In this document: one piece after another, positions 5,236-35,779 of the stretch | How positions within the stretch are numbered: position 1 is the first letter of the stretch | How the letters are laid out: every line of letters begins with the position of its first letter | Source of the DNA: Eubacteriales bacterium | GTDB taxonomy: Bacteria > Bacillota > JASUSC01 | Direction of reading: 5' to 3' | NCBI GenBank assembly: GCA_030446285.1 | Contig: JASUSC010000010.1 | Location: forward strand, 1 to 36,718 | DNA: 36,718 nt | Made by a program: the position numbers and the translations under genes | Notes under the pieces: generated by a model | What the model saw: only the letters and a program-made list of their open reading frames with translations | Database searches by the model: none | What the model was told of the DNA's origin: nothing

Positions 5236-5925
5236 CTATTTTAACTCAAATTTATACCCCACTCCCCATACCGTTTTAATGAAAACCGGCTGAGCGGGAT
5301 TTTTTTCTATTTTCTCCCGGAGGCGGCGGATGTGGACGGTGACGGTGTTTTCATCTCCATAGAAGTCGCTGTTCCACACTTGATTCAGGATTTGCATGCG
5401 GGTGAAAACTTGGTTAGGATGGGAGGCCAGAAGCCAGAGGAGATCGAACTCTTTGGCCGTAAGCTCCTTTTTTTCTCCATAAGCTTCCACTTCCCGGGTA
5501 CGGCGGTTGATTTTGAGCTGGGGATAGGTGATAACCTCCTCCTGGTTTTTGGTAGTATCGCCGTGCCGGCGTAAAACGGCTTTAACCCGCAGGGCCAGCT
5601 CGGCGGGGCTAAAAGGTTTTACCTGGTAATCATCTGCTCCCAGCCGGAATCCCACCAGCCGGTCCACCTCTTCGCTGCGGGCAGTGAGAAAAATAACCGG
5701 CAGGTCGCAGCGCTTTTTTATTTCCTGGTACAGCTCAAAGCCGTCCATGTCGGGCAACATAACATCCAGGATGGCCAGGGCCGGTTGCTCTTTCTCCAGA
5801 AGGGTTAATCCTTCTTCGCCGTTTGTGGCTACCACTACATCGAAACCTTCACGGCTCAGGCTGTGAGTCAGGATTTTGCCAATCTGCGGCTCATCATCCA
5901 CTACCAGGATTTTAGCTTTTCCCAT
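5236..5925 (-). CDS. OmpR/PhoB-family response regulator
   Basis: 229 residues. The receiver domain (~1-120) has the acidic pair D10/D11, phospho-acceptor Asp54 in LAILDVMLP, Thr81 and Lys103 in VKPF. A winged-helix trans_reg_C DNA-binding domain follows (~130-229) with LTAKEFDLLWLL and the C-terminal TVHIRRLREKI and VWGVGYKFE. The start at 5925 is preferred over an in-frame codon at 5976 because MGKAKILVVDD is the normal domain start and an AGGAGGAAAAA site precedes it. The start overlaps the end of the histidine kinase gene by 14 nt, indicating translational coupling and a cognate pair. Its target genes are not evident. Confidence 0.93.
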   Translation of the reverse strand: MGKAKILVVDDEPQIGKILTHSLSREGFDVVVATNGEEGLTLLEKEQPALAILDVMLPDMDGFELYQEIKKRCDLPVIFLTARSEEVDRLVGFRLGADDYQVKPFSPAELALRVKAVLRRHGDTTKNQEEVITYPQLKINRRTREVEAYGEKKELTAKEFDLLWLLASHPNQVFTRMQILNQVWNSDFYGDENTVTVHIRRLREKIEKNPAQPVFIKTVWGVGYKFELK

Positions 5926-7549
5926 CGCTTTTTTCCTCCTTCCCGCTGGCTGCGGCTTCGGTGGCAGCCGTGGCAACCGGAAGGGTGAAAAAGAAGGTGC
6001 TACCTTGCCCAGGTGAGCTTTCTACCCACATCCGGCCACCGTGCATTTCAACTAGGGTGCGGGCCAGGGAAAGACCTAAACCAGTGCCAGCTGCGTTTTT
6101 GGCTGCTCGCCCCCGCCGGAATCTCTCGAAAATGTAGCGTCTTTCTTCTTCACTGAGGCCAGGGCCTTGGTCAGTGACGGCAAAGCGAAGGGTTGGTTCA
6201 GGAACGCGAATTACGTCTACGGCAATGGTTATGGTTGAATCAGGTGGGGAATATTTTGATGCGTTATTGAGCAGGTTGGTGAGAATCTGTTCCGCCCTTT
6301 CCGGGTCGGCCAATATGGAAGGCAGCTTTGGCGGCAGAAGCAAGTTCACTTGCTGATTTTTGTGCTGCAAGAGGGGGTGAACCGCCCGCAGGGCTGCGCT
6401 GACGATTTCTTCCGGGCGACAGGCTTTACGATTCAGGTTCATCATCCCGGCCTCGATTTTGGCCATGTCCAGCAGGGAGTTGATCATGTTGAGGAGGCGG
6501 GAAGAACTGTTGAGAATTTCGTTAACAAAGTCTTCCTGAAGGGGAGCTAAAGGGCCCGTCTGAGGGTCTTTGAGCATTTCGGCAAAAGCAATTATGCCGG
6601 TGAGGGGAGTGCGGAGTTCGTGATTGGTGTGGGCGAGGAATTCCCGCTGCAGCCGGTTGGTTTCTCTTAACCTGCGGTTAACTTCTTCCATTTTTTCTTT
6701 TTGCAGTTTGAGAAGGCGGTTTATTTTGTACATACGCTGCAGCGAGGTAATGAAAAGGGCGTAGAGAACCAGCAAGTAAGCGGTAATTTTGTATAGATGC
6801 CCGGCGATATTGAGAAGGTCGTAAACGCTGGCGTAGACAGAAAAAGCCGTTTCGCTCAGGATTCCCGCCAGAAGAGACCATCTCAGGAAAAGAGAAGGTG
6901 CCTCTTTTTCTTCCGCTTCTTTCTGATAACGGTAGATGGAAAAAAGGGCCAGAGCGCGGAGAGAGATAACCACAAATTCCAGACCCTTTTTTACCGGACT
7001 TTGGCCGTAACTGGCCACATACATAGGCGGGAGATGATCCAGCCAATAGATGACGGCCGCCGAAGAAAGAGGGAGAAAGGAAAGAACGGGCAAGAGAAAG
7101 ACAACCAGGGGTATCTCGCGCCGAACTTTTTTCTGTTGCAGCAATACTGCCAGCAAGAAAAAAGCTGCTTCCCACAGGCGAGCGCTAATCCAGAAGGTGG
7201 AGGCTTTGTTGGGTGAACTGGGAGTAAGAAAGGGGGGCATTCCTGGGTAGGACAGGGTATGGATCAGATCGAGAAAGCCCGCACCGGTAAAAGTTAGAGC
7301 TATCAACAGACTGAAAAGGGAACCCGTTTCCCGGTAATTGAACCAGGCAGAAATTACCACCGTAAAGGCGATGACGATGGAGGAAATTTCGACTACGTTG
7401 TGAAAAGCCAGAAAAAGGGAGGAAGCGATTTTCACTTTTGCTAAGTGGGGCAGGAAGAGAAGCAGGAGAAGAGGAATTGATGCCAGACCGGCGAAAAGCA
7501 GGTCCTGCCTCCACGCCGGACGCGCTTTTTTCCCGTGCAGAAAAACCAC
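5912..7549 (-). CDS. membrane sensor histidine kinase with MASE3-type N-terminus
   Basis: 545 residues. Seven to eight hydrophobic segments (~15-265) with FLDLIHTLSYPGM and ISARLWEA match the MASE3 integral-membrane sensor domain. A short coiled coil (~270-300) leads into HisKA with phospho-acceptor His310 (HTNHELRTPL). The HATPase_c domain carries the N box (NLLNNASKYSP, ~425-435), G1 box DQGPG (460-464), F box FERF and G2 box GTGLGL (488-493), so the kinase looks fully active. The last residues after ~520 are Ala/Lys-rich. It is first in a two-gene minus-strand operon with the response regulator and is divergent from the ferredoxin gene. The ligand of MASE3 domains is unknown. Confidence 0.92.
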   Translation of the reverse strand: MVFLHGKKARPAWRQDLLFAGLASIPLLLLLFLPHLAKVKIASSLFLAFHNVVEISSIVIAFTVVISAWFNYRETGSLFSLLIALTFTGAGFLDLIHTLSYPGMPPFLTPSSPNKASTFWISARLWEAAFFLLAVLLQQKKVRREIPLVVFLLPVLSFLPLSSAAVIYWLDHLPPMYVASYGQSPVKKGLEFVVISLRALALFSIYRYQKEAEEKEAPSLFLRWSLLAGILSETAFSVYASVYDLLNIAGHLYKITAYLLVLYALFITSLQRMYKINRLLKLQKEKMEEVNRRLRETNRLQREFLAHTNHELRTPLTGIIAFAEMLKDPQTGPLAPLQEDFVNEILNSSSRLLNMINSLLDMAKIEAGMMNLNRKACRPEEIVSAALRAVHPLLQHKNQQVNLLLPPKLPSILADPERAEQILTNLLNNASKYSPPDSTITIAVDVIRVPEPTLRFAVTDQGPGLSEEERRYIFERFRRGRAAKNAAGTGLGLSLARTLVEMHGGRMWVESSPGQGSTFFFTLPVATAATEAAASGKEEKSDGKS

Positions 7550-14068: not shown

Positions 14069-14794
14069 ATGCGACAAAAAGTGCTAGTTGTAGCCGAAAA
14101 CCCAGCGATAAGGCTGCTGATAAAAAATAAGTTTGAAAAAGCAGCCGATCTGCTTTTTTCCTATCAGGTGGTGGAGGCCGAGGATACTGGTACGGCCCGG
14201 GAGTTGGCGGAGAGGGAAGAAGTGGATGCGATTATCTGTGATTTGGATGTTCCCCCGGGGGGAGGGCTTTTCCTCTGCCAGCAACTGAAGGAAGTACCGG
14301 CTTTAGCGGGGATTCCAGTGGTGGTTCTGGGAGAGAGAAGCGGGCGGGAAGAGCGGATTGCCGCCTACAGGGCCGGGGCGGTGGCTTTTGTGGCCAAGCC
14401 CTTTGCCGTAAACGAGCTTTATTACCGGCTTCGCGCTCTTCTTCAGATGCGGACGGCCCTTTTCACCGGGAAGGAAATGGAGGCGGTGACGACCTTTTTG
14501 CAGAGAGAAGACTTGGAGCCGGCAGAAGCTCTGGCGCGTTTGCTCCAGGTTCTCTGCCCCGGTTCTCCTTTTTACATCTGGCACAAAGGCCAGGAAGATT
14601 TGTCTCTGATTTTTCCTCAGGACGCAGCCGGTGAGACTCCCGGCAGCCTGTCTCCGGAAAGCTGCCGGATAGAAGGATGGGTAATCTTTTCCTGGTCAGG
14701 GGAAGAAGGGGAATACATAGCGGCTGTGAACAGCAGGGGCATGGGGGCCGGAAAAAGAGAGTTTCTCCGCTGGCTTTTGAGTTTGAGGGGGTAA
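14069..14794 (+). CDS. receiver-domain protein with an uncharacterised C-terminus
   Basis: 241 residues, ATG start with AGGAGGAGG. The receiver domain (~1-125) contains the likely phospho-acceptor Asp58 in IICDLDVPP and Lys110 in VAKPF. One of the usual N-terminal acidic residues is replaced (VVAENP), so phosphorylation chemistry may be weakened. The remaining ~110 residues show no DNA-binding, GGDEF or kinase domain. It starts the cluster of polysaccharide-type genes and lies 4 nt before the HEAT-repeat gene, so it is probably the regulatory input of that cluster through protein contact rather than transcription. Confidence 0.75.
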   Translation: MRQKVLVVAENPAIRLLIKNKFEKAADLLFSYQVVEAEDTGTARELAEREEVDAIICDLDVPPGGGLFLCQQLKEVPALAGIPVVVLGERSGREERIAAYRAGAVAFVAKPFAVNELYYRLRALLQMRTALFTGKEMEAVTTFLQREDLEPAEALARLLQVLCPGSPFYIWHKGQEDLSLIFPQDAAGETPGSLSPESCRIEGWVIFSWSGEEGEYIAAVNSRGMGAGKREFLRWLLSLRG

Positions 14795-14798
14795 GAAA

Positions 14799-16139
14799 AT
14801 GCCCTATGCGGTCTCTTATTTGCTTTTTCTTCTGATACTGTTGTTTGCTCTTTTTGGCTTAATTCTGGTCATGTTTTTCTACAAGGTCCTCCTTCACTTA
14901 CGGAGGGGCGAAGAAGAGAAAAAACGGCAGGAGTTACTTTCTGCCCTCCTCAATTTTTTGAGTGAAGGGACGGAGTTTGCTCTTTCGCCAAAGCAATATC
15001 CTTTGCTTGCGGAAATTTTAACGGCGGAGCTGGCTTTTCTCGGCGGAGAAGACCGGGAGAGACTCTTGGATTTTCTCAAAGCCAAAGGTTTTTACTCTTA
15101 CCTTTTGGAGGAAATAGAGAAAAGAAAAGGGGTTCGCTTTCTCAGGGCGTTAAGGGTTTTTTCTTCCTTTGGCAGCCGGGAAGACTTGGGGTTTTTGTTA
15201 ACCTTGATGGAAAGAAAAGGAGAGAAGTATTTTCCCGACCTGGCCGTGGCTTTTTTGCGCTTGTTAAACACCATAGAGATGGAAAATAAAGGGATTTTTT
15301 TGGCCGCTTTTTTGGACATGCTCCTCAAGCGGCTATCTCTGTTTTCTTTTGCCCTCAGGCGAGAGGTGCAGTTTCTTTTAACCGGGTTAAAAGAAGAGGC
15401 AGCAGCGGTAGTTATGGAGAGGGTGCAAAGGATGCTGCTTACAAGTCCCCCCGAGCTTCTCTCCTTTTCCCTGGACCTTTTGGGTAAGCGTTCCCGGGAG
15501 AAGGGGTCAGCACAGCGGGAAATAGATCAACTCCTTTTTCTTTTAGATGTACTGGGTGAGATAGCTCTGCCGGAGGGAGAGTTCCTCGCCAAAAAGCTCC
15601 TCACCCACCCGGAAGCGGAGGTAAGAGCCCGGGCCTGCCGGCTGGCGGCTGCGGTGGGTTCGGCCGGGGCTTTCTGTGTGGTGGATGGGAGAGAAAGAGA
15701 GTGTTTTGCACCGGCCTACCTTGTTTCCTGTTTGAAAGATCCTGCCCCGGCGGTCCGGGTCCGATGTGCCCATGCCCTCGCGGTCCTGCAGATAGAGGAG
15801 GCTTTACCTCACCTAGCTTCAGCTCTTGCCGACCGGGTTTATTACGTGCGTGATGCGGCCATGCGGGCCCTGTACGCCTACCGCTGGCGGGCTTTTCCTT
15901 ACCTCTGGCAGGTAGTAAAGGAAGGGAAAGATCCTTTCGCCCGGGACAAGGCGCTGGAATGTTTTCAGCTTTATGATAATTTTCTCTTGCTAGTGGAGGG
16001 GAGCAGGGGATTAAACCATCTTGACCCTTGTTTCTGCCGGGAGATTCTCGCCGTGCTGGAGGTGGAAGCGGGGGAGGTGTTTAAGAGAAGGCTTGCGGAG
16101 CTTGCCCCGACCTTTCCTCCGGAAGGGGAAAGTTATTAG
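14799..16139 (+). CDS. membrane-anchored HEAT-repeat protein
   Basis: 446 residues. One N-terminal transmembrane helix (~5-30) is followed by a basic stretch (LHLRRGEEEKKR), placing the rest in the cytoplasm by the positive-inside rule. The body is alpha-helical. Clear HEAT-type repeats occur in the second half (HPEAEVRARACRLAAAVG, DPAPAVRVRCAHALAVL, DRVYYVRDAAMRALYAYRW). Such solenoids are scaffolds, here probably at the membrane next to the glycosyltransferase encoded immediately downstream and the receiver protein encoded immediately upstream. No enzymatic motif is visible. Confidence 0.8.
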   Translation: MPYAVSYLLFLLILLFALFGLILVMFFYKVLLHLRRGEEEKKRQELLSALLNFLSEGTEFALSPKQYPLLAEILTAELAFLGGEDRERLLDFLKAKGFYSYLLEEIEKRKGVRFLRALRVFSSFGSREDLGFLLTLMERKGEKYFPDLAVAFLRLLNTIEMENKGIFLAAFLDMLLKRLSLFSFALRREVQFLLTGLKEEAAAVVMERVQRMLLTSPPELLSFSLDLLGKRSREKGSAQREIDQLLFLLDVLGEIALPEGEFLAKKLLTHPEAEVRARACRLAAAVGSAGAFCVVDGRERECFAPAYLVSCLKDPAPAVRVRCAHALAVLQIEEALPHLASALADRVYYVRDAAMRALYAYRWRAFPYLWQVVKEGKDPFARDKALECFQLYDNFLLLVEGSRGLNHLDPCFCREILAVLEVEAGEVFKRRLAELAPTFPPEGESY

Positions 16140-16146
16140 GCGGTGG

Positions 16147-16241
16147 GTCATTGAGGTCTATACCTGGTTAGTGAGTTGGTCGAGGGGTGAAAGGAGTAAA
16201 TGGCCTATCCTGTCATTGAGGTCTATACCTGGTTAGTGAGT
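16147..16241 (+). repeat. 30-bp perfect direct repeat at the glycosyltransferase start
   Basis: The same 30 bases occur at 16147-16176 and 16212-16241, a 65-nt period. The second copy encodes residues 5-14 of the glycosyltransferase (VIEVYTWLVS). The first copy lies in the intergenic gap after the HEAT gene and can be read as the same peptide, but that frame shifts out before reaching the real gene. It looks like a recent tandem duplication around the start codon. Confidence 0.9.
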
Positions 16242-17597
16242 CTATATGTAGCAGCCCTCAACACTATTTACGCTGTTCTGGCGGTAATTTCCTTGGTGGG
16301 CCTGTTTCTCCACCTGCGGCGAAAGGTGAAGGGACGGCCGGTAGAACGGGTTGGTGCTCTTTTTTCCCTGCCTGTTTCGCTCCTGGTTCCTGCCTACAAC
16401 GAAGAGAAGACCATTGTCAAAGCTGTTCGTTCCTTTCTCCAGAGCGATTATCCCCAGTATGAAGTGGTGGTGGTCAACGACGGTTCCACAGACGGGACTC
16501 TCGACGTCCTGATAAAAGAGTTTGCCCTTTACCCCATCAAACGGCCTTTCCGCAAAGTTATTGCTACGGCACCGGTAAGGACCCTCTACTATTCCCGCTC
16601 CTATCCCAATTTAGTGGTTGTAGATAAAGAGAACGGGGGTAAAGCCGATGCCCTCAATGCCGCTCTCAACGTAGCAGCTTATCCCTACGTTTGCACTCTG
16701 GATGCGGATTCTGTTTTGGAGCGGGATGCTTTAGCCAAGGTTATGGAGCCTTTTTTTGAGGAACGGGGGCGGGCAGTGGCTGTCTCCGGGGTGGTGCGGC
16801 TGGTAAATGGCACTTTAGTAGACGAGTTCGGCAGGGTAAAAGAAGTACACCTGCCCCGTTCTTCCCTGGCCAGGCTGCAGATTGTGGAGTATTTCCGGGC
16901 TTTTTTGGGGGCGCGTTTAGGGTTTTCTTATCTCGGCAGCCTTCTCATAGCCTCTGGAGCCTTTGCTGCTTTTGCCAAGGAGGCGGTGGTCCAGGCGGGT
17001 GGATTCAGTACCCGCACCGTCGGCGAAGATATGGAGATAGTTGTCCGACTGAAGCGTCTCAGTTACCAGGCCGGCAGACCGGGGAAAGTGATTTTCGTCC
17101 CCGACCCCATCGTCTGGACCCAGGCTCCGGAAAACCTCTACGACCTGTCCAGACAACGGCGGCGCTGGCAGAGAGGACTGGCGGAAGTCATTTTCTTGCA
17201 CCGGGGCTGTCTCTTTAACCCCCGCTACGGCGTCTGCGGCCTGTTTGCTCTGCCTTACCAGCTTCTCTTTGAACTGCTGGGGCCGGTAGTGGAAGCGATG
17301 GGTTATGTGGTGGTGCCGGTAGCCTGGCTTTTTGGTCTCATCAATACCACCGGCTTCTGGGTTTTTCTCTGGGCCGAGGTTTTTTACGGGATTTTTGTCT
17401 CTCTACTTTCCGTCCTTTATTCGGAGCTTTCCGAGAAAAGATACGCCACTTTCTTGGAGTTTGCCGTGCTGGTAATTTACGCTGTCTTAGAGAATTTCGG
17501 CTACAGGCAGTTAACTGTCGTCTGGCGGCTACAGGGGTTGATGGACGCCCTGCGACGAAAACGGGGCTGGGCCAAAGTGGAAAGACAGCAAATTTAG
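16200..17597 (+). CDS. membrane family 2 glycosyltransferase (cellulose-synthase/PgaC-like)
   Basis: 465 residues. N-terminal membrane segments (~10-40) precede a GT-A catalytic domain with PAYNEEKTI, VVVNDGSTDGT, the DxD motif D168-A-D170, the acceptor-site TVGED motif with Asp277, and QRRRW (Q319-W323). C-terminal membrane helices follow (~345-455). This is the signature of processive inverting transferases that polymerise and extrude beta-linked sugars, such as cellulose or poly-N-acetylglucosamine; the sugar is not determined here. No PilZ domain is present. ATG start with AAAGGAG; the sequence around the start is partly duplicated upstream. Confidence 0.9.
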   Translation: MAYPVIEVYTWLVSLYVAALNTIYAVLAVISLVGLFLHLRRKVKGRPVERVGALFSLPVSLLVPAYNEEKTIVKAVRSFLQSDYPQYEVVVVNDGSTDGTLDVLIKEFALYPIKRPFRKVIATAPVRTLYYSRSYPNLVVVDKENGGKADALNAALNVAAYPYVCTLDADSVLERDALAKVMEPFFEERGRAVAVSGVVRLVNGTLVDEFGRVKEVHLPRSSLARLQIVEYFRAFLGARLGFSYLGSLLIASGAFAAFAKEAVVQAGGFSTRTVGEDMEIVVRLKRLSYQAGRPGKVIFVPDPIVWTQAPENLYDLSRQRRRWQRGLAEVIFLHRGCLFNPRYGVCGLFALPYQLLFELLGPVVEAMGYVVVPVAWLFGLINTTGFWVFLWAEVFYGIFVSLLSVLYSELSEKRYATFLEFAVLVIYAVLENFGYRQLTVVWRLQGLMDALRRKRGWAKVERQQI

Positions 17598-17609
17598 GGG
17601 GGATTGCGG

Positions 17610-18743
17610 TTGCCGAGGCGGAAAAAATGGTACCTTTTTATCGTTCCGCTGGTGCTGGCAGTCATTGTTAGCGGTCCTTTTCTCTGGTGGTATGCCCTTC
17701 CGGTCAGACCCTTGCAGGTGATTATTCTGGACAAGACGGTTCCCGACCGCACTTACCGGGAGCACCGGGGGCTGATGTGGATTCTCAACCACCGCAAGCG
17801 TTTTAACCGGAACACTGGCAAGCCTTTCCGCTATGATCGGGATTATTACGGCTTTTTCCCGCTGGAAGGGAAGAGTTTCGATATTATTTCCCTTCCCTCT
17901 GACCTTAAAAAGGCGGATATGGTGTACATTGCTGACACTTACGGGGTTTACAGTGAGGATTTCTACGGCGAGAACCTGCCAGGGGAGAGATCGGAGCTCC
18001 TTTATGGTGGGATGACAGAGGAGGAGGCGGCAGCGGTGGCGGCAGCGGCGCGGGCGGGAGTTCTCACCGTGGCTGAGTTCAACACCTTAGCTTCACCCAC
18101 GCCAGAAGGGGCACGGAAGAAGATGGAAGAAGTCTTTGGCGTGGAGTTTACCGGCTGGACGGGGCGCTATTTTTCCGACCTGTCGGCAACAAACAAGGAG
18201 ATGCCGGAGTGGCTGGTAGCCTCTTACGAGCGCCAGGAAGGGAAAAAGTGGAGGTATACCGGTCCCGGACTGGTGCTGGTCCATGCCGGCGGGCGGGTGG
18301 TGGTTCTGGCCGAAGGACGGGAAGTAGAGACCCCGCCCTGTGCGGCGATGGTGCGCCGGCCGTGGCCGAGAGGGCCTGAGGTGGGAAAGAAAATTCCCTA
18401 TTATTACTGGTTTGAGATCCTCCGGCCGAAAAAAGGGAGCGAGGTTTGGGCCGAATTTCAAATTAACGCTACGGCGGAAGGAAAGAAAATCCTTGCTCAT
18501 AACGGCATTCCTGCCTCCTTTCCGGCGGTGGTGGCGGTAACCGACCGGCCGGTTTACTATCTGGCGGGAGATTTCGCCGACTTGGCGGAAGTACCCCCGC
18601 GCTGGTCGGTGGCCGGAATGAGCTGGGTGCAGCGGCTGTTCGGCACCGCTCTCCCTGGTGACCAGACCTATTTTTACTGGCATTTTTACTTCCCGCTGGT
18701 GGATTTTTTTCTGGAGAAGATAGGGGACGGTGGCAGGAGATGA
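17610..18743 (+). CDS. membrane-anchored hypothetical protein of the polysaccharide cluster
   Basis: 377 residues from the TTG at 17610, chosen because GGGGGG lies 7 nt upstream; the TTG at 17604 is also possible. A basic N-terminus (PRRKKWY) and one transmembrane helix (~9-28) anchor an extracytoplasmic domain. ADMVYIADTYGVYSEDF, a helix starting GGMTEEEAAAV, and then GVLTVAEFNTLASPT resemble a GATase/flavodoxin-like fold in which strand ends bear conserved acidic residues, but no catalytic triad was recognised and I cannot name a family. Its start follows the glycosyltransferase by 12 nt and its stop overlaps the next gene (ATGA), so it belongs to the same operon. Confidence 0.72.
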   Translation: MPRRKKWYLFIVPLVLAVIVSGPFLWWYALPVRPLQVIILDKTVPDRTYREHRGLMWILNHRKRFNRNTGKPFRYDRDYYGFFPLEGKSFDIISLPSDLKKADMVYIADTYGVYSEDFYGENLPGERSELLYGGMTEEEAAAVAAAARAGVLTVAEFNTLASPTPEGARKKMEEVFGVEFTGWTGRYFSDLSATNKEMPEWLVASYERQEGKKWRYTGPGLVLVHAGGRVVVLAEGREVETPPCAAMVRRPWPRGPEVGKKIPYYYWFEILRPKKGSEVWAEFQINATAEGKKILAHNGIPASFPAVVAVTDRPVYYLAGDFADLAEVPPRWSVAGMSWVQRLFGTALPGDQTYFYWHFYFPLVDFFLEKIGDGGRR

Positions 18744-20449
18744 ACAGACCGATAGCCGTACTGCTGACGCTGATCCTTACCTTGCTCTTTTCTTTCGTAG
18801 CCGGGGTAGCCGTTCTCTTTCTGGTGATAATCCCCCTGGATGCTTTCCTGAGGACCTATGATGTGGCGCCGGTACTGATAAATTTCGTTACAGCTTTTCC
18901 CATCTTTTTCTGGTTCGTCCTTTCCCTTCTTGGTGCTCTTTTTTTCTACTACCAGCTAACCCATTCGCGCCGGAGCTTGCTGGTGGGGGTGGCATTTCTG
19001 ATCCTCCTTTCGTTTATTAGCGGTGCGGGTATGTTTTTCCTCACCCACACCGAAAATCCCGGCCTAAAACTCCTGCAGGGGAAGAGAGAGGAGACCACCA
19101 AGCGGATTATTTTCGGACCCTATCCGGAAGAAAGCACCCTGAAGAGCCTGAAACAGCAGGGGATAACGGATGTCATCTCCCTTCTTAATCCGTCCATCCC
19201 CTTTGAGAGGGTACTCCTCCTCCGGGAAATGGAGGCGGGCAAAAAAGTAGGGATCACCGTTCATTCCGTGCCCATGCTCCCCTGGGTGAGCAAGAACAGC
19301 GAGGCGCTTGAGGAGATAAAGAAGCTCCTAGCGGAACCTTCCCGGCGTTACTATATCCATTGCTACTTGGGCAAACACCGGGTGGATCTTGTCCGCCAGA
19401 TGCTGGCTGCGGGAGGAAAGGTTAACCAGGGGCGGGAAGTGATTTTTCCCGATCGGCTGGAGCGGGGAAGAGTGGTTTCCCTGAGCGGTGGCAGGTACGT
19501 TTTAGGTCCTCTGCCCACGGAGGAAGAGTGGTTTAACGTAGTGGCGCGAGGGAGATTTACAACTGTAATATCTTTCCTCAACCCGCGTAATCCGGAAGAT
19601 GTTCCCTGGGTGGAAAAGGAGAAAGAGTGGGGGCGTAGTTTAAATATAAAAGTGATGTTTGTACCCTTTTCTCATCCTCCTACTCAGGAGGAAAAAGATA
19701 AACTGGCCAACCTGCTGGGCGACGTTCAGGGCCGGTTTTACATCCACGGCTTCCGGGGCGACGATCCCCGCCTTCCCCTGGTAGAGGGGTACCTGCGCTG
19801 CGGGAGATGGTTGCCTTCGCCGCTGCCGTCCCTTCTGGCCCGGGAAGGAACCGTAGTTGTTGTTCCCGGTCTGTACTTAGGACCCGCGCCCTCCCCTGCA
19901 GAGGTGGCGGAAATAGAGAAAGCGGGCTGGCGGGTGGTGGGAAATCTCACCTCTGAAAATCACCTTTCTCTGCCGGAGATGGCCCGCCGGATTGAAGAGA
20001 CGGTGGCAAAAGAGGGACTTCCTGCTTACTTCTACGGTTTTGCCGGGGAAGAGCAGTTGCACGCGGTAGCGGAACTCCTCCGCCGTTATTACTACGGAAT
20101 GGAAGAGTTGCCTCCTGCCCTGGCAGCGGCGAAGAGTGTGAAAATCAGCGGCTTCATAGCAGTCGGCCCGCTCCAGGGTGAAAAAATGGCGGCGGAACCG
20201 GCCAGAGCTGGGTTCCGCACGGTGGCATTCCTCGCCGGCAGGGATGGAATGGATGCTGGGGAGCGGGAGAAGCTGGTTCGAGCTGTGCACAGAGCAGGGA
20301 TTGAGGGAAAAATCCTTCCCTACCGCGATGGGTATGAGAACGAGATTATTCTCCTTTCCCGGGAGAAAGGGCCGTGCTATGTAGCGATATCTGCCCCGGC
20401 TTTGCCACAGGTGGTCGGGGATCTTAAAGGACACCTTCTTCAGAGGTGA
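18740..20449 (+). CDS. three-TM protein with four tandem dual-specificity-phosphatase-like domains
   Basis: 569 residues. Three membrane helices (~7-32, 48-71, 80-101), with the basic loop THSRRS between helices two and three, put the large C-terminal part outside the membrane if the N-terminus is inside. Four similar units follow, each starting with a GP-(L/Y/A)-P-like turn (FGPYPEE ~125, LGPLPTEE ~255, LGPAPSPAE ~380, VGPLQGEK ~475). The first ends in HCYLGKHR (Cys208 to Arg214), the Cx5R phosphatase loop. The second has HG in place of HC, the third YG, and the fourth has no such loop. Only unit one can be catalytic by cysteine chemistry. It is translationally coupled to the preceding gene. 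Confidence 0.75.
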   Translation: MNRPIAVLLTLILTLLFSFVAGVAVLFLVIIPLDAFLRTYDVAPVLINFVTAFPIFFWFVLSLLGALFFYYQLTHSRRSLLVGVAFLILLSFISGAGMFFLTHTENPGLKLLQGKREETTKRIIFGPYPEESTLKSLKQQGITDVISLLNPSIPFERVLLLREMEAGKKVGITVHSVPMLPWVSKNSEALEEIKKLLAEPSRRYYIHCYLGKHRVDLVRQMLAAGGKVNQGREVIFPDRLERGRVVSLSGGRYVLGPLPTEEEWFNVVARGRFTTVISFLNPRNPEDVPWVEKEKEWGRSLNIKVMFVPFSHPPTQEEKDKLANLLGDVQGRFYIHGFRGDDPRLPLVEGYLRCGRWLPSPLPSLLAREGTVVVVPGLYLGPAPSPAEVAEIEKAGWRVVGNLTSENHLSLPEMARRIEETVAKEGLPAYFYGFAGEEQLHAVAELLRRYYYGMEELPPALAAAKSVKISGFIAVGPLQGEKMAAEPARAGFRTVAFLAGRDGMDAGEREKLVRAVHRAGIEGKILPYRDGYENEIILLSREKGPCYVAISAPALPQVVGDLKGHLLQR

Positions 20450-20453
20450 GAAA

Positions 20454-21807
20454 ATGAAGAAAAAAGCGGTGGCCATCGGCCTTCTGGCACTTCTGATTTT
20501 GCCTCTCTCTTATTATTACCTGCTACCGGGCCCCCTTACGGCCCGGGTTGCCAGTGCCGGTTTGCAGGTGGAACTGAGCTGGCGGCGGTCGGCACTGCCT
20601 CTTGCCTACCTGCTGGAAAAGGAGGAGGGGAGAAAAACGGTGGTGCTGGGGCAGACGACTGCAGGGAGGTGGGTGGACGACGAGGTGGTGCCAGGAAAAA
20701 CTTACCTGTACCGTCTTTCTGCTCCCGCCCGCAGCCGGTGGTGGCGGCGGGAGGCGAAGGTGGAAGTGCCGGACGAGTTTGCCTCCTTCCGGCAAGCCCT
20801 TTACCGCCGTCTTGATGCCCACTTTTTTCCTTCTTCCGGACGCAGTGCGGAGAAGAGATGGATTTACGACGATGCTTTAGGAGTGCTGGTCTACTGCGCT
20901 ACCGGTGAAAAAGAAAAGGCCCGGCGAATACTGGCCGGACTGGCTTCCCGCCAGGGGAAAGAGGGGGCTATAAATTTCTTTTATTTTACCGATAACCAAC
21001 CGACGGAGAGATATATCCGCAGCGGGCTTTAGCCTGGGTAGGGTACGCAGCGGCTGTTTACCAGCTTACCTTTTCCGATCCCTCTTTTCAGCCCATGGCG
21101 GAAAAAATTGCCGCTTACCTTCTGAGCTTGCGGGGGAAAGACGGCCTGGTCCGGGGTGGGGAAGGAACCTACCTTCCCGGGGGTGGATTTAAGCCGGGAC
21201 GGGTGGAGTGGGCAGCAGCGGAGCACAATATCGACACCTGCTTTTTCCTCCAGGCCTTGGCTAAAGCTACCGGCAAGAGCAGTTATGCCCGGGAAGAACA
21301 AAAAATAGGGCAGGCTCTGGAGCAAGTCCTGTGGTTGCCAAAGGGGGACAGGCTGCGTCCAGGCACCGGGGAAGACCGGCCGGCTCTGGATGTGGTGAGC
21401 TGGGGAGGCCTTTACTTCCTGGCTAAAAACGACGCGAAAAAAGTGCGGGCTTCCCTGGATGGCCTCAAAGCCTTTGCTCTCCCCGGCGGTGGTTATAGTT
21501 ACGAGCCGGGGGGAACCCTGTGGCTGGAAGGGAGCTGGGGAGCGTTCCTTCTCCGCCTGCGTTGCGGCGAAGAGGTGGGTAGGGAAATCCGCTTTCTGGC
21601 CCGCAGGCAGGAGGAACTGGGTGGCGGGACGGTGAGCGACGCGGCCTGGGGCTTTTTGGTTTTGGGAGGCAGGGACTTTCTTCTCAGCAAAAAGTTTTTT
21701 GAAGGGGTTTTTTTGAAAATCGCAGCAGAGCGGACGCAGGCTGGGCTTTCAACGAGGAAAAATTTTTCCTGCTCAAAAATTATACTTGCTTCATGAGGAT
21801 ATTCTAA
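20454..21807 (+). pseudogene. frameshifted extracytoplasmic glycosidase-like protein (alpha/alpha toroid)
   Basis: The intact gene would encode ~450 residues: an N-terminal membrane anchor (~4-22), a beta-rich FN3-like module with LLEKEEGRKT and YLYRLSAPARS, then an alpha/alpha-toroid domain reminiscent of family 8 glycosidases or related six-hairpin enzymes (WIYDDALGVLVYCATGE, EHNIDTCFFLQAL, ALDVVSWGGLYFLA, AGWAFNEEKFFL). The frame breaks twice, each equivalent to one missing base: at GGG 21024-21026 (stop at 21030, the sense continuing as ALAWVGYAAAVYQ) and around the T7 run at 21708-21714. The proper end is at 21805-21807. Either the gene is inactive or these are indel errors. It is last in the polysaccharide cluster, as expected for a hydrolase that trims the product. 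Confidence 0.75.
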
Positions 21808-23233: not shown

Positions 23234-24196
23234 ATGTGGCAAAAATTTGTTGATTACCTCACCTATGATTTAATGGGCTTCCCACCGCAGAGCCGTTTGG
23301 GTTCGGCGGTGAACTTTTTCATTTACGATACGGTAAAAATCCTCGTTCTCCTTTCGGTGATCATCTTTGTCGTCTCCTTTATCCGCAGTTTTTTCCCGCC
23401 GGAGAAGACCAAAAAAATTCTCAGCCACCGGCGACAGGTTATTGGCAACATTCTGGCTGCCCTCCTGGGGATTGTTACTCCCTTCTGTTCTTGCTCGGCC
23501 GTGCCTCTCTTCATCGGTTTTGTGGAGGCCGGTGTTCCCCTGGGGGTAACCTTCTCCTTCCTCATTTCTTCCCCCATGGTTAATGAGGTGGCTTTGGGCC
23601 TCCTCTGGGTGATGTTCGGCTGGAAGGTAGCTCTGATTTACATTGCCAGCGGCCTTACCGTGGCCATCGTTGCCGGCATCATTTTAGGCCGCCTCCACCT
23701 GGAGCACTTGGTAGAGGACTACGTCTACCAGATTGCCTATGCGGCGGGAGGGGGAGCAGGGGGAGAGCTGCCTGCGATGACCTGGCGGGACCGGGTGGAA
23801 TATGCCCGCTCCTACGTGGCGCAAATTTTGCGCAAGGTGTGGCTCTATGTGGTTATTGCCATTGCCATCGGCGGCTTTATCCACGGCTATGTGCCGGAAG
23901 ATTTCCTGGCCCGATATGCCGGGCGGAATAATCCTTTCGCCGTGCCTTTGGCGGTGGCTATTGGCGTACCCCTCTACTCCAACGCTGCTGGTACTATTCC
24001 CATCGTCCGGGCCCTGATTGAAAAAGGGATGCCTTTGGGTACGGCTCTCGCTTTTATGATGTCGGTGACCGCCCTTTCTCTGCCGGAGATGATTATCTTA
24101 AGACGGGTACTAAAACCCAAGCTCATTGCTATTTTCGTCGCCATTGTTGCCACGGGGATCCTGGCGGTAGGGTACCTCTTCAACTTCATCATGTGA
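23234..24196 (+). CDS. ArsP/DUF318-type permease
   Basis: 320 residues with about eight to nine membrane helices. Helix two carries TPFCSCSAVPLFIG (Cys85, Cys87), the signature of the DUF318/ArsP family (PF03773), where the paired cysteines bind arsenicals or other soft metals. A second half has the symmetric GVPLYSNAAGTIPIV. ArsP members export trivalent organoarsenicals, but close relatives have other cargo, so the substrate is inferred from the locus. It is translated right after the thioredoxin-like protein, which may donate the substrate or reduce the cysteines. Confidence 0.88.
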   Translation: MWQKFVDYLTYDLMGFPPQSRLGSAVNFFIYDTVKILVLLSVIIFVVSFIRSFFPPEKTKKILSHRRQVIGNILAALLGIVTPFCSCSAVPLFIGFVEAGVPLGVTFSFLISSPMVNEVALGLLWVMFGWKVALIYIASGLTVAIVAGIILGRLHLEHLVEDYVYQIAYAAGGGAGGELPAMTWRDRVEYARSYVAQILRKVWLYVVIAIAIGGFIHGYVPEDFLARYAGRNNPFAVPLAVAIGVPLYSNAAGTIPIVRALIEKGMPLGTALAFMMSVTALSLPEMIILRRVLKPKLIAIFVAIVATGILAVGYLFNFIM

Positions 24197-24271
24197 AGGG
24201 GGAGCATTCTCTCACCTTTCTAGCATTGTCTGATTAAACAGAATGAACTGGAGCGGAAAAAATGAAACGCC

Positions 24272-24397
24272 GTGGGGATAGTGGTAGCATCCGGTGGATA
24301 CTGGGAGATGGCCGGAGGGATTGACTTCTTCTTCAGCCGGTTCCTGCTGAAAGTAATACCGGTGCCGGCGGTACGCCGGCGAGGAGTAATTTTTTAG
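24272..24397 (+). other. short unassigned reading frame, possible gene fragment
   Basis: A GTG-initiated frame of 41 residues (VGIVVASGGYWEMAGG, then IDFFFSRFLLKVIPVP and a basic end) lies between the permease and the ACR3 gene. Its composition looks protein-like and hydrophobic, but no ribosome binding site is clear and it may continue upstream through a frame change. I cannot tell a small membrane peptide from the tail of a deleted gene. Confidence 0.35.
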
Positions 24398-24410
24398 GGA
24401 GGTGGTTTTT

Positions 24411-25466
24411 GTGGCGGTAAACGAAGCCCGTTTATCTCTTCTGGACCGGTTTCTAACTTTGTGGATTTTTTTAGCTATGGCCTTAGGAGTGGCTGTGGGA
24501 TACCTCTTCCCCGGCGTGGCTGACCTTCTCAATCGGCTGTCGGTGGGGACCACGTCCATTCCCATTGCCATCGGCCTTATCGTCATGATGTACCCGCCTT
24601 TAGCTAAGGTCAACTATCGGGAGCTGTACAAGGTTTTCCAGAACAGGAAGGTATTAGCCCTCTCTCTTATCCAGAACTGGGTCATTGGCCCGGTGCTCAT
24701 GTTTCTTTTAGCCATCATCTTCCTGCGCGGTTATCCCGAATACATGGTGGGGCTTATTTTAATCGGCTTGGCCCGCTGCATCGCCATGGTCATTGTCTGG
24801 AACAGTTTGGCCAAAGGAGATACGGAGTACGCTGCCGCGCTGGTGGCTTTTAACTCCCTCTTCCAGGTCTTTTTCTACTCCGTCTACGCTTATATCTTCA
24901 TTACCATTCTTCCCGGTTTCTTCGGCCTGAAAGGGGCGGAGGTCCACGTTTCCATGGCGGAAGTGGCTAAGAGCGTGGGCATCTACTTAGGGGTTCCTTT
25001 TGCTGCCGGTTTTCTCACCCGCATGATTCTGGAACCGGCCAAGGGAAAGGAATGGTACGAGAAGGTTTTCGTGCCCAAAATTAGCCCGCTGACTCTCATC
25101 GCCCTCCTCTTTACTATCGTGGTTATGTTCTCCTACAAGGGGAACTACATCGTCAAACTACCTTTAGACGTGGTACGGGTAGCTATTCCTTTGGTTCTCT
25201 ATTTTGTGGTGATGTTTACGGTTTCCTTCTTCATCAGCCGCTGGCTGGGGGTTAACTACCCGCAGACGGCAACCCTTTCCTTTACGGCGGCCAGCAACAA
25301 TTTTGAATTGGCCATTGCCGTGGCGGTAGCCGTTTTCGGCATCAACTCCGGCCAGGCCTTTGCTGCTGTCATCGGTCCTCTCATCGAGGTGCCGGTGATG
25401 ATCAGTTTGGTCAACGTGGCCCTGGCCTGGCAGAAGAAATACTTTGCGGTCGAAGGCCAGCGGTAA
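24411..25466 (+). CDS. acr3: ACR3-family arsenite efflux transporter
   Basis: 351 residues with ten membrane segments. The key motif is [13 protein letters not shown] (Cys123), the cysteine known to be essential in ACR3 pumps, followed by [13 protein letters not shown] and, in the second half, [16 protein letters not shown] with its conserved glutamate. ACR3 extrudes arsenite (and in some cases antimonite) using the proton gradient. The GTG at 24411 is preferred because GGGAGG sits 8 nt upstream; the GTG at 24402 overlaps that site. It is the last gene of the arsenic/thiol locus and ends at a terminator. No arsR regulator is seen in the window. Confidence 0.94.
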
Positions 25467-30197: not shown

Positions 30198-32450
30198 ATG
30201 AAAGAGCTTTACTTAGCGGCCCTTCTCCACGATATCGGCAAGTTCTACCAGCGGGCGGACAAGGAAATGCGCTATGAAAAACATGCTAGGGCTGGAAGTG
30301 TTTTTCTCAACCGTTTCCTCGCTGGCAGGCTTGCGAACGGGGAGAGGGACAGGGTGGTGGAGATGGTTGCCCGCCACCACGAGCCGCAGACTTACTGGGA
30401 CTACGTGCTGGCGATAGCGGATAAGCTTTCTGCCATGGAAAGGGAAGAACAGGAAGGGGAGAAGGGGGAGGCAGCAGCAGAGCCCTTAGTGGCCATCCTT
30501 TCGCGGGTAAAGCTGGGAGACAAGGGTGGGGAGGAAGCCTATCATCCCCTGCGCCTGCCGGACCCGAATAAGCCTTCCTATCCCGAGAAGGCGAAGGAGA
30601 AAGCCCTAAGGGAAGGCGACTATCGCGATTTCTGGCAGCAGTTTACCGGCGAGATGGAGAAGGTTTCTGACCTCGGGGATACGGCGGGAAGGCTTACCCT
30701 TTACTATCTCCTCCAGAAATATCTCACCGCCGTGCCCTCGGCAGCCTACTATTCCCGGACCACCATTTCTCTCTTTGACCATGCCCGCACCACCGCGGCC
30801 ATCGCCTTAGCTTTAGCCCAGGAGAAGCCGGAACATAAAGAGTTAGAGGAGATCCACGCGGCCCTTGTCAAATACCTGCTGGCGCCAGAAAAAGAAAGGG
30901 CACAGAGGGAAGAAGAGATACCGGCCCGGGAGAGGTTTTTCCTGTTGGGGGGAGATATCTCCGGCATTCAGGATTTTATCTACGACATTCCCATGGATGA
31001 TGCCGCCCGCAACCTGCGGGGGCGATCTTTCCTCGTCGCTTACCTGTGCCACTTTTTAGCGCGGTGGCTGGCGGCGGAAGAGGGACTGGCCGAAGCCAAC
31101 ATTCTCCTCGCGGGCGGAGGAAAATTCACCCTCCTCCTCCCGGCGGGGGCAGCCGGGCGGCTGGACAGTTACCGCGAAAAATTGGAGAGGGAGTTTTACC
31201 AAGCCTTTGGCGGGCGGTTGAAAGTGTTTTTAGCCGGTATCTCCTTGACTTACCGTGACTTTCTCCCAGGGAAAATAGCCGCCAAGTGGGATGAGTTAGG
31301 CGGAGAAATTGAACGGGCCAAAAGGCGTCCCTGGGGCTCTCTCCTTGCGGCGGGGGTGGACCTGTGGCAGCCCCGGGAGGATGAGGGCACCTGTCCCGTC
31401 TGCGAGCAGCGGCCGCGGGAGGAAGAAGGCTGGTGCTCTTTTTGCAGCAGCCTTCGCGACCTGGGCCAGATGGTGGGGCAGGCACGGGTGTTGGCGGAGC
31501 GGCGGCGGGAACCTCGGGGCGGGACCGTCCGCACTTTAGGGGATTTCTTCGCCCGCTTCGGCTGGGAAATGGTATTGAGCGAGAAGACGCAGCCGGGATA
31601 CAAGAATTTCCTTTTGGGCGGTTTCGATTTCATTGGTCAAAAATGTCAGGGCTTCTTCTTCGCCCCTGTATGGGAGCCCAAGGCTTTTGACTCCCTGGCG
31701 GAAAAAAGCAGCGGCCTTGCCACCTGGGGAGTGCTGCGGGGAGATGTAGACCACCTGGGGAGAATTTTTCGGGAGGGGCTGCCCGACCTCACCATCTCCG
31801 GTTTGGCTGCTCTTTCCCGATCGCTGAGCGAATTTTTCGGCCTTTACTTTGCCGGTCTTCTTACTAACTGGCGGGATGAGGTCTACCTGATCTACGCCGG
31901 CGGCGACGATTTCTGCCTCGTGGGAAGCTGGTCGGAGCTGCCCAGGGTAGCTCAGCATTTGCGCCGGGAGTTTTCCCGCTACTGCGCGAAAAACCCGGCC
32001 CTTACCTTCTCGGCGGCCATCCGCTTAGCGCCGGGGGTGAAGTTTCCCTTCTACCGGGTTGCCGCTGCGGCGGGAGACCTCCTCGAGGAAAAGGCCAAAG
32101 GCGAGGGAAGAAACCGCATTGCCTTCTTGGACCGGAGTTTCACCTGGGAGGAGTTTAAGGACGCGGAAGAAATAAAAAACCTCATTGTCCACATTATTAC
32201 CAACGGCGGCTCCCGGGCCCTTATCTCCATCCTGCGTTTCACCGGTCCTGTTGACGACTATCGGACGGCCTGGCGTTTAGCCTACCACCTGGCCCGCTAC
32301 CGGGATACCCTCGCCGGGGAGAAGCTCAGAGCGACGATGGAGGAGCTTATGGACCGGCTGTTGCCGGAGGACCGATATGTGTACCCATTCACGCTGGAAG
32401 TGGCCCGCTGGGCTGAATTAGAGACGCGAAGAGGAGGGGATGAAGAATGA
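30198..32450 (+). CDS. csm1: type III-A CRISPR Cas10/Csm1
   Basis: 750 residues. Domains in order: an N-terminal HD nuclease with HDIGKF (His11-Asp12), a first palm, a zinc finger with C399-x2-C402 and C413-x2-C416, a second palm with the cyclase motif GGDD (568-571), and a C-terminal helical domain. Both the DNase and the cyclic-oligoadenylate synthase sites look intact. In the Csm complex Cas10 is activated by target RNA, cleaves nearby single-stranded DNA and makes cA-type messengers. ATG start with AAAGGAGG. Its stop overlaps the csm2 start (ATGA), so the operon is translationally coupled from here on. Confidence 0.97.
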   Translation: MKELYLAALLHDIGKFYQRADKEMRYEKHARAGSVFLNRFLAGRLANGERDRVVEMVARHHEPQTYWDYVLAIADKLSAMEREEQEGEKGEAAAEPLVAILSRVKLGDKGGEEAYHPLRLPDPNKPSYPEKAKEKALREGDYRDFWQQFTGEMEKVSDLGDTAGRLTLYYLLQKYLTAVPSAAYYSRTTISLFDHARTTAAIALALAQEKPEHKELEEIHAALVKYLLAPEKERAQREEEIPARERFFLLGGDISGIQDFIYDIPMDDAARNLRGRSFLVAYLCHFLARWLAAEEGLAEANILLAGGGKFTLLLPAGAAGRLDSYREKLEREFYQAFGGRLKVFLAGISLTYRDFLPGKIAAKWDELGGEIERAKRRPWGSLLAAGVDLWQPREDEGTCPVCEQRPREEEGWCSFCSSLRDLGQMVGQARVLAERRREPRGGTVRTLGDFFARFGWEMVLSEKTQPGYKNFLLGGFDFIGQKCQGFFFAPVWEPKAFDSLAEKSSGLATWGVLRGDVDHLGRIFREGLPDLTISGLAALSRSLSEFFGLYFAGLLTNWRDEVYLIYAGGDDFCLVGSWSELPRVAQHLRREFSRYCAKNPALTFSAAIRLAPGVKFPFYRVAAAAGDLLEEKAKGEGRNRIAFLDRSFTWEEFKDAEEIKNLIVHIITNGGSRALISILRFTGPVDDYRTAWRLAYHLARYRDTLAGEKLRATMEELMDRLLPEDRYVYPFTLEVARWAELETRRGGDEE

Positions 32451-32869
32451 ACGGACAGGGGCACCAGAGTAAAAAAGGGCAAGCCGGAAGGGATGATGAA
32501 CTGAGAGAATTGAAAGCGAAGGTCAAGGTAGTAATCGACCCTAATCAGGATCCGGACGGAGCGGAACTGATTGCAGTGGCAAGAAAGATGGCTGAGGTTT
32601 GTGCAAGAAAAAACATGACCACCTCCCAGATTCGCCATCTTTTTCAGGAAGTCCAACAGATCAGAGGAGGAGAAGGTTTTCTCTATCAGGTAAACAAACT
32701 GCGCTACAAATTCGCTTATACGGCAGGAAGACATAGGGAAGTAAAACCCCTGCAACAGGTGGCAGAAGTTGCTTTGAGCGAAGTGAGAGACGAGAAAAAT
32801 TTGGCCCGCTTTCGCGACTTCTTCGAAGCGGTAGTGGCCTATCACCGCTACTTGGGTGGTAGAGAATAA
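32447..32869 (+). CDS. csm2: Csm2, small helical subunit of the type III-A complex
   Basis: 140 residues. After a charged N-terminus it has MTTSQIRHLFQEVQQI and LRYKFAYTAGRH, followed by LARFRDFFEAVVAYHRY, the typical helical Csm2 pattern. It forms the inner filament ('belly') that contacts the target strand alongside Csm3. It starts by ATGA overlap with csm1. Confidence 0.93.
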   Translation: MNGQGHQSKKGQAGRDDELRELKAKVKVVIDPNQDPDGAELIAVARKMAEVCARKNMTTSQIRHLFQEVQQIRGGEGFLYQVNKLRYKFAYTAGRHREVKPLQQVAEVALSEVRDEKNLARFRDFFEAVVAYHRYLGGRE

Positions 32870-32891
32870 AAGGCTTGAGGAGGGAACGGCT

Positions 32892-33692
32892 TTGCAGCTT
32901 ATCGGGAAAATTGTCATTAAAGGGAAGATCAAAACCCTCACGGGACTCCATATCGGCGGCGCCCAGGGGAACAAGGAGATCGGTGGTGTGGACAAGAGCG
33001 TGGTCAAGGACGCCGAGGGCAAACCCTACATTCCCGGCTCCAGCCTGAAAGGGAAGATGCGCTCCCTTTTGGAGCGGGAAAAAGGGAAGCTGGATAAATC
33101 CAAATTGTACCGGCTGAAAGATGACGGGGATGAAACCAAAAAAATCCGCATTCACATGTGCAACGAGGAAGGCTGTCCCATCTGCGTCATTTTTGGTCGC
33201 AACAACGTAAAGGGGAAAAAGATGGATGACGGAAACCCAATCAATATCACCAACACCACCCCCACTCGTCTCATCGTACGCGATGCCTATCTGATTGAAG
33301 AGAGTTTAGCTAAAGTGCGCGATAAGCTGGACTTGGAGTGGACGGAGGTCAAGTTTGAAAACTCCCTGGACCGCATCACCTCGGCGGCTAACCCCCGCCA
33401 GTTGGAGCGGGTGCCACGGGGAGCGGAGTTTGAGCTGGAGATGGTCTACTCCGTGCTCACAGAAGGAGATAAAGAGCGGTTTAAAGACGTTCTTGCCGCC
33501 ATGCAGCTTCTGGAAGACGACTATTTGGGCGGGTCGGGCAGCCGCGGCTACGGAAAGATAGCTTTTGAAGACCTGAAGCTCTTGTGGCGGCCGGCAGCTT
33601 ATTACCGCGGGGAGAAGGAAGAGAAGGAACTTGCTAGCGGAAATTTGGAGGCGCTGCAGAAGAATTTTAAACCTGAGGAGCTGAGCTGTTGA
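32892..33692 (+). CDS. csm3: Csm3, RAMP backbone and target-RNA nuclease
   Basis: 266 residues from the TTG at 32892, preferred because GAGGAGGG precedes it and the RAMP fold starts at once (MQLIGKIVIKGKI); an upstream GTG at 32856 lies inside csm2. The catalytic aspartate is Asp34 in GGVDKSVVKD, followed by PYIPGSSLKGKMR. A zinc motif is present (HMCNEEGCPICVIFG), and the C-terminus has the glycine-rich GGSGSRGYGKI. Csm3 polymerises along the crRNA and cuts bound target RNA at 6-nt intervals. Its stop overlaps csm4 (TGATG). Confidence 0.95.
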   Translation: MQLIGKIVIKGKIKTLTGLHIGGAQGNKEIGGVDKSVVKDAEGKPYIPGSSLKGKMRSLLEREKGKLDKSKLYRLKDDGDETKKIRIHMCNEEGCPICVIFGRNNVKGKKMDDGNPINITNTTPTRLIVRDAYLIEESLAKVRDKLDLEWTEVKFENSLDRITSAANPRQLERVPRGAEFELEMVYSVLTEGDKERFKDVLAAMQLLEDDYLGGSGSRGYGKIAFEDLKLLWRPAAYYRGEKEEKELASGNLEALQKNFKPEELSC

Positions 33693-34669
33693 TGGCCAAA
33701 ATAGCCGTCTTGGATCTGAAGGGGCCAGTTCACTTCGGGGTGCGGGAGGAGAGCCTCACCCGGATAAGACCCTTAGGGGGAAGCGACCTCCTCTTCAGCG
33801 GTATAGTGAACTGCTTCCGCCTTCTTTTCGGCGAGAAGGAAACAGAGGAGTTCTTGGCAGCTTTCCACCCTGGGGAAGAGCCGCCCCTGCTTCTCTCCTC
33901 CCTTTTTCCGGTGGTGGAGGAGAGGGGAAAAGAACCCCTCTACTTCCTGCCCCGCCCCCTGAGTCTGGACCTCACTCCCTACTTTCCGGAGCGGAAAGAG
34001 GCGAAAAAGATAGCCTTTCTCCCGGCAGAATTTTTACGCCGTCTGGCCGAGGAAGGGGAACTGCCGGATGGGGAGAGGCGAGGGCCTTTCTACTTCCCGA
34101 CCGGAGAAGGACGGGAAATCTTCTGGGAGGAAGAGCGCCCGCGGGTGGCTCTGGATGCCATCACTTCTGCTTCCTCCATCTACTACGCCAGCGTTACCCG
34201 CTTTGCTCCCGGGGTTTGCCTGTACTTCTTCTGGCAGGCTGCGCGGGGGTGGGAGGAAAAAATAAAAGCCGCTCTGCGCCTCTTAGGGGACGAAGGGTTA
34301 GGCGGTGAGCGGAGTTACGGTTTGGGGGGTTTTGTGGTCAAGGATGCTGACCGCTCTCCTTTTCCCTGGCTTGCTGCTGAGGAAGATTGTTCCTGGCTTC
34401 TCCTCTCCGGTTTTTCGCCGGCGGAGAAGGAAAAAGACCTGGCCGGAAGTCTCGTGGCCTGGGGCTGGCGGGAAGAGGGAGGCTACCTTTACTCCCTGCG
34501 GGATACCGGCCGCAAACGGCAGCGCTGCCTGCTGTTAGGGGAAGGCTCCGTGTTCAAAAAAAGGGTGGTGGGGAGATTGGTGGACGTCACGCCGGCAGGT
34601 TTTGGTGAGCACCGAGTCTACCGCTACGGTTATGCTTACCTGCTGCCCTGGCGGGAGGTGAAGAGATGA
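33692..34669 (+). CDS. csm4: Csm4, crRNA 5'-handle-binding RAMP subunit
   Basis: 325 residues. N-terminal RAMP sequence (LDLKGPVHFG, SDLLFSGIVNCFRLLFG) and the glycine-rich loop GDEGLGGERSYGLGGF place it as Csm4. It caps the crRNA handle end and docks Cas10. The ATG at 33692 forms a TGATG overlap with csm3; a TTG one codon earlier is less likely. Its stop overlaps the csm5 start (ATGA). Confidence 0.93.
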   Translation: MAKIAVLDLKGPVHFGVREESLTRIRPLGGSDLLFSGIVNCFRLLFGEKETEEFLAAFHPGEEPPLLLSSLFPVVEERGKEPLYFLPRPLSLDLTPYFPERKEAKKIAFLPAEFLRRLAEEGELPDGERRGPFYFPTGEGREIFWEEERPRVALDAITSASSIYYASVTRFAPGVCLYFFWQAARGWEEKIKAALRLLGDEGLGGERSYGLGGFVVKDADRSPFPWLAAEEDCSWLLLSGFSPAEKEKDLAGSLVAWGWREEGGYLYSLRDTGRKRQRCLLLGEGSVFKKRVVGRLVDVTPAGFGEHRVYRYGYAYLLPWREVKR

Positions 34670-35775: not shown

Positions 35776-35779
35776 GAAG

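Follow-up and report, generated by a model that had tools for sequence, protein, structure and literature searches.

A predicted four-unit phosphatase-fold membrane protein encoded in a conserved glycosyltransferase operon

We analyzed a stretch of 36,718 nucleotides from an Eubacteriales bacterium (the window, to whose full length positions refer unless another locus is named) and found that the 569-residue protein encoded at 18740-20449 (forward strand, ATG start) consists of three predicted membrane helices followed by four units, which are homologous by profile comparison and are predicted to have the cysteine phosphatase (PTP/DSP) fold. By sequence comparison across genomes, its gene belongs to a conserved operon with a GT2 glycosyltransferase, a HEAT-repeat protein, a regulator, and a one-helix partner. 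The fold and the putative chemistry are of known kinds, whereas the protein family, its series of two-, three-, and four-unit repeats, and the operon are apparently undescribed: no library searched names the family or the operon, and no paper on either was found in the literature searched, a body that left most subscription journals outside its scope. Cysteine phosphatases have mostly been studied as intracellular signaling enzymes; the occurrence of their fold in a polysaccharide operon, in a conserved, repeated form that is mostly inactive and probably extracellular, suggests that it serves to make or process a surface polymer. The protein thus looks like a new accessory in the making of the slime coat of some bacteria, and it draws attention to an operon in which the family of the one-helix partner is frequent in Bacillales yet has no Pfam name.

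Repeat units and predicted fold

The start of the gene overlaps the end of the preceding gene by 4 bases. As the original prediction had it, three transmembrane helices come first, at about residues 3-39, 44-75, and 79-102 (18746-19045; AlphaFold2 model, hydropathy, and charge counts). Behind them lie, on the same strand, unit 1 (residues about 120-224; 19097-19411), unit 2 (about 250-355; 19487-19804) with a conserved GPxPTxEEW start and a loop without cysteine, unit 3 (about 372-455; 19853-20104), and unit 4 (about 470-569; 20147-20446), which lacks catalytic residues. Units 1 and 2 were delimited by alignment, profile comparison, and modeling, with a fold search in addition for unit 1, and units 3 and 4 by profile comparison and models. 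The whole protein had no match in Pfam and a single one, far below the cut-off, in NCBIfam (Blh), while a single-sequence search of the PDB returned nothing usable; matches to ricin and designed repeats in that search, like profile matches to Golgin A7 and others, were judged to be due to chance.

Relatives were gathered by genome search, and an alignment of the units of 17 proteins, which come from Bacillota and Actinomycetota, was used for profile-profile comparison. All pairs of units were significantly related, with E values ranging from 2.4e-14 for units 1 and 2 (over 105 columns) through 2e-12 (units 2 and 4), 8.5e-11 (units 2 and 3), 1.9e-9 (units 3 and 4), and 1.2e-6 (units 1 and 4) to 9e-6 for units 1 and 3 (only 26 columns), compared to 0.008-0.6 for reversed-sequence controls. 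The best profile match between the membrane part and the units was no better than 0.011.

An AlphaFold2 model of the full protein had a mean pLDDT of 82.8 and a pTM of 0.55, the latter value making the relative placement of the units uncertain. In this model, units 1, 2, and 4 share the order β-α-β-α-β-α-β-α, and unit 3 has the same order minus one α-β pair; a full-length unit 3 is present in one relative (L027). When the whole model was compared with the PDB using Foldseek, the best match was the DUF442 phosphatase 3gxh (E = 2.6e-4), followed by KAP, TpbA, Tk-PTP, NMA1982, PFA-DSP1, a plant phosphatase in complex with product (4kyq), a Sulfolobus PTP, and Siw14, with Cdc14 also among the matches. 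The evidence for the fold of unit 2 consists of the full model and the strong profile match to unit 1. Units 3 and 4 were also modeled alone (pLDDT 90.5); the matches of highest probability (0.95-1.0) were Tk-PTP, DUF442, and the Sulfolobus PTP, none of which passes an E value of 0.001, and unit 4 gave a weak profile match to NMA1982 (E = 0.045). Matches of units 3 and 4 to SRP-GTPase and dehydrogenase folds were dropped for their low probability and rmsd of about 15 Å, and a different fold for these two units was rejected on the strength of the profile homology and the cysteine phosphatase matches of their model. Altogether, the claim of four tandem phosphatase-like units with a DSP-like unit 1 survived structure prediction, the analysis that could have shown units of unlike fold or a unit 1 unlike DSPs, with the qualification that unit 3 is one helix-strand module short.

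The DUF442 phosphatases (3gxh and NMA1982) and the N-terminal domain of Blh, which provide the best PDB fold match and the weak match of unit 4, are single domains, and the matched structures have no membrane helices; we know of no tie between these proteins and polysaccharide operons. The same matches raise the alternative that unit 1, as a counterpart of the DUF442 domain of Blh, transfers sulfur and is not a phosphatase, given that the best fold match is a DUF442 protein and that Blh is the sole NCBIfam match (residues 119-222). We consider this very improbable, since the Blh match scores 13.7 bits against a family cut-off of 625 bits, and in the loci examined no sulfur-metabolism gene adjoins the phosphatase-fold gene, the context being polysaccharide throughout. 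A chain that pairs an active phosphatase-fold domain with an inactive one has eukaryotic precedents in Cdc14 and the receptor-type PTPs, which have two tandem domains; the bacterial membrane proteins described here have up to four units, the first being the putatively active one.

The candidate active site of unit 1

The alignment of the 17 proteins confirmed that HCx5R is confined to unit 1. In the P-loop HCYLGKHR (residues 207-214, 19358-19381), all positions are invariant in 17/17 proteins except for K/R at 212, and D216 is likewise invariant, at an overall identity to the window protein of 23-34%. At the loop position, unit 2 has mostly H-G/D/N/S, unit 3 has Y-G or nothing conserved, and unit 4 has nothing conserved, so that no conserved cysteine occurs there in units 2-4. 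Mean pairwise identity is 57% for unit 1 and 38, 27, and 29% for units 2-4, respectively, and in 10 of the 17 proteins Cys208 is the sole cysteine outside the membrane part. The conservation of unit 1, the invariance of its P-loop, and the lone Cys208 suit a nucleophile kept by selection, supporting with moderate strength that unit 1 acts as a phosphatase.

Unit 1 nevertheless does not have a canonical DSP site, because two elements are missing: the residue after Arg214 is Val, Ala, or Ile in all 17 proteins instead of Ser/Thr, and no conserved Asp/Glu acid was found in this alignment in the WPD-like loop PMLPW[VI]xxN (residues 178-186, 19271-19297). The earlier proposal that unit 1 alone is catalytically equipped thus holds for the nucleophile loop and requires amendment for the remainder of the site. 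An atypical group offers the closest parallel. The Asp/Glu acid of the WPD-like loop is also missing in PFA-DSP1, Siw14, PTEN, and CDC25, and the acid-less AtPFA-DSP1 and Siw14 cleave the phosphoanhydrides of inositol pyrophosphates (PMC9038691). In AtPFA-DSP1, His155 beside the catalytic Arg has been proposed as the base, its mutation costing 95-98% of activity, and a Lys-Arg pair in the loop binds inositol phosphates (PMC9038691). Unit 1 resembles these plant and fungal enzymes in fold, in its G-[K/R]-H-R P-loop, and in its acid-less WPD-like loop; it differs in that they are single soluble domains with HCKRGKHRT (consensus HCxxGKHRT) in place of HCYLGKHRV, the Thr being replaced. Because their Lys-Arg is Tyr-Leu in unit 1, the substrate should differ. 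The corresponding Pfam family PF03162 (PFA-DSP/Y_phosphatase2) gave weak matches in 6 of the 17 members (best E = 0.0014, below the curated cut-off) and none in the window protein, and PFA-DSP1 was the best match, a weak one at E = 0.62, of the unit 1 profile to solved structures.

These features also bear on a noncatalytic alternative, in which all four units, including unit 1, would serve as a scaffold that binds a phosphorylated or acidic glycan and guides the polymer from the membrane. In its favor, the loop is clearly inactive in units 2-4, two of the usual catalytic elements are absent from unit 1, and in other genomes a hydrolase-like part fills the place beside the partner protein (see below). 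A pure binding site, however, need not keep a nucleophile, and Cys208 and Arg214 are invariant in every protein aligned, 10 of which have no other cysteine outside the membrane part; we regard the scaffold as a doubtful but serious contender.

Operon context and topology

Upstream of the phosphatase-fold gene and on the same strand lie genes for a response-regulator receiver protein (14069-14794; PF00072, E = 1.2e-16), which is the first of the run, a HEAT-repeat protein with one N-terminal membrane helix (14799-16139; PF13646, E = 2.4e-11), a membrane GT2 glycosyltransferase (16200-17597; PF13641, E = 2.9e-25), and a predicted extracellular protein with one helix (17604-18743). The GT2 enzyme carries a QRRRW motif and is nearest to PgaC/IcaA, with a TIGR03937 match of E = 2.4e-40 that is below the cut-off. 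The run has the gene content that characterizes a synthase-dependent exopolysaccharide operon, with a processive membrane GT2 alongside a regulator and accessory genes. The original prediction had placed the gene between polysaccharide genes, which is borne out upstream by the GT2 gene and not downstream, where the next gene (20454-21796, forward strand) is frameshifted and has no family match in Pfam or NCBIfam. Its frameshift, near 21027, splits it into open reading frames at 20454-21032 and 21095-21796, whose products resemble two parts of a single secreted protein; the split reflects either an assembly error or a decayed gene.

The order of regulator (REC/GGDEF), HEAT, GT2, one-helix, and phosphatase-fold genes is repeated in six other genomes (G194, G636, G758, G627, G650, and G762); some HEAT and regulator assignments were made by position and BLAST rather than by profile, and in G758 and G630 the comparison covers the genes other than the regulator. 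In G630 the one-helix and phosphatase-fold genes are swapped, in G672 the operon genes form two neighboring groups, and in G302 only these two genes are found together. In Rubrobacter, a gene for the two-unit protein accompanies HEAT, GT2, and GH16 genes. The phosphatase-fold gene of the G015 lineage stands beside a phosphomannomutase-like gene and a gene for a 722-aa protein, with no GT2 or one-helix partner nearby. In different lineages, different neighbors tie the phosphatase-fold protein to the polysaccharide system.

The one-helix protein is a conserved operon partner with more than 50 invariant columns in an 11-sequence alignment; profile searches gave its family no Pfam name, and a first guess that it resembles glutamine amidotransferases was dropped because they support no name. 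Of 250 Bacillales genomes sampled, 85 have the family. As a separate gene it is present in all nine phosphatase-fold carriers of this sample, both genes looking degraded in G648, compared to about 3 of the 241 others (p = 2e-14, a value that is too small because the carriers share ancestry). The one-helix profile was built largely from these nine carriers, so frame length, and not the E value, constitutes the independent evidence. Most other genomes with the family carry it fused to a hydrolase-like part of ~700 aa. The 722-aa protein of the G015 lineage aligns over about 700 aa, at 37-38% identity, with the C-terminal portion of such fusions. The phosphatase-fold protein thus occupies the place beside the one-helix protein that is held elsewhere by the hydrolase-like part. 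Fusions of about 1,090 aa, in which the ~700-aa part has no Pfam match, were seen at L053 (5330-8515), at L054 (6737-10021), and in about 70 further Bacillales genomes; the fusion genes belong to a REC/HEAT/GT2 operon that lacks the phosphatase-fold protein.

The units likely lie outside the cell. Family-wide, the predicted inner segments carry 126 Lys and Arg residues versus 36 on the outer ones, with an inner excess in 16 of the 17 proteins. The exception is the window protein itself, with 3 inner versus 4 outer; hence the outside placement, put forward earlier on the positive-inside rule, is strong for the family and weak in the window's own sequence.

Candidate roles, distribution, and other genes

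The explanation we favor, tentatively and with somewhat less than even confidence, is that the protein, tethered to the membrane and located outside the cytoplasm, serves as an accessory to a GT2 exopolysaccharide synthase whose operon is under the control of a regulator, and that its unit 1 is an atypical cysteine phosphatase like PFA-DSP1 and Siw14. Cys208 would be the nucleophile, the phosphate would be held by Arg214 and the loop backbone, and His213 possibly stands in as a base, there being no Asp acid. Lacking that acid, unit 1 would favor a good leaving group, and possible substrates are a diphosphate or, at the outer face, the phosphate of a sugar or lipid. Units 2-4 would be decayed copies forming an arm that may position unit 1, or may bind the emerging polymer and the neighboring one-helix protein; the original prediction had these inactive units possibly binding a phosphorylated glycan or lipid. 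Support is weak for the substrate and for the role of units 2-4. Counting against this explanation are the missing Ser/Thr and conserved acid, the weakness of the PFA-DSP1 match, the Tyr-Leu replacement, the ambiguous charge of the window protein, and the G015 context; nor do we know of any need of GT2 synthases for a lipid diphosphate.

A broader proposal, which we hold to be rather doubtful, is that these genes represent an undescribed exopolysaccharide machine of Bacillota and Actinomycetota, whose membrane-tethered, multi-unit phosphatase-fold protein would work outside the cytoplasm at the exit of the synthase, as a cysteine phosphatase acting independently of an acid on a diphosphate or a phosphorylated glycan, the inactive copies being a polymer-handling arm. 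The PNAG, cellulose, and Pel systems are alike in having a processive membrane GT2, GGDEF/REC regulation, and an extracytoplasmic partner; to our knowledge, HEAT, one-helix, and multi-unit phosphatase-fold proteins are not parts of them.

The presence of REC/GGDEF regulators in the operon and of TpbA among the best fold matches suggests another possibility, that unit 1 dephosphorylates a residue of an extracytoplasmic protein, for example the synthase or the one-helix partner, and thereby switches polymer synthesis. TpbA of Pseudomonas aeruginosa shares the fold and lies in the periplasm, outside the cytoplasm as is likely for the units here. It acts on phosphotyrosine and is linked to exopolysaccharide and c-di-GMP, exerting control over Pel via a GGDEF protein (PMC2691606). 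TpbA differs from the window protein in that it has a single soluble domain, has its gene outside the polysaccharide operon, and keeps C(X)5R(S/T) (CKHGNNRT), whereas unit 1 has no Ser/Thr after the Arg; moreover, the regulators of the operon have no evident outside part. A regulatory protein phosphatase of this type is in our view unlikely.

The phosphatase-fold protein is rare: sampling found it in 5 of 300 genomes from across the phylum, 9 of 250 from one order (Bacillales), and 3 of 63 from one class, and three cases among 297 genomes from the phylum of Rubrobacter were credible; no relative was found on the plasmids searched. The window protein is the four-unit form of a family that also has two- and three-unit members: other four-unit proteins come from the same phylum, a three-unit protein from G302, and two-unit proteins from Rubrobacter. 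A match in G353 (L014, E = 7e-4) was discarded, as no related open reading frame was found there on reading. Two nearly full copies and a fragment lie on three contigs of G879 (L036, L037, and L038). In G648 (L046, 8896-10407, reverse strand), the phosphatase-fold gene is cut to 139 codons, corresponding to the membrane part, and a stop codon interrupts the frame of the one-helix gene, indicating a decaying locus. Elsewhere in the window are a gene for a histidine kinase with a MASE3 membrane sensor domain (5912-7549, reverse strand) and, on the forward strand, an ArsP-like permease and an ACR3 arsenite efflux gene (23234-25466) and type III-A CRISPR (Csm) genes encoding Cas10, RAMP proteins, Csm4, and Cas6 (30198-36565).
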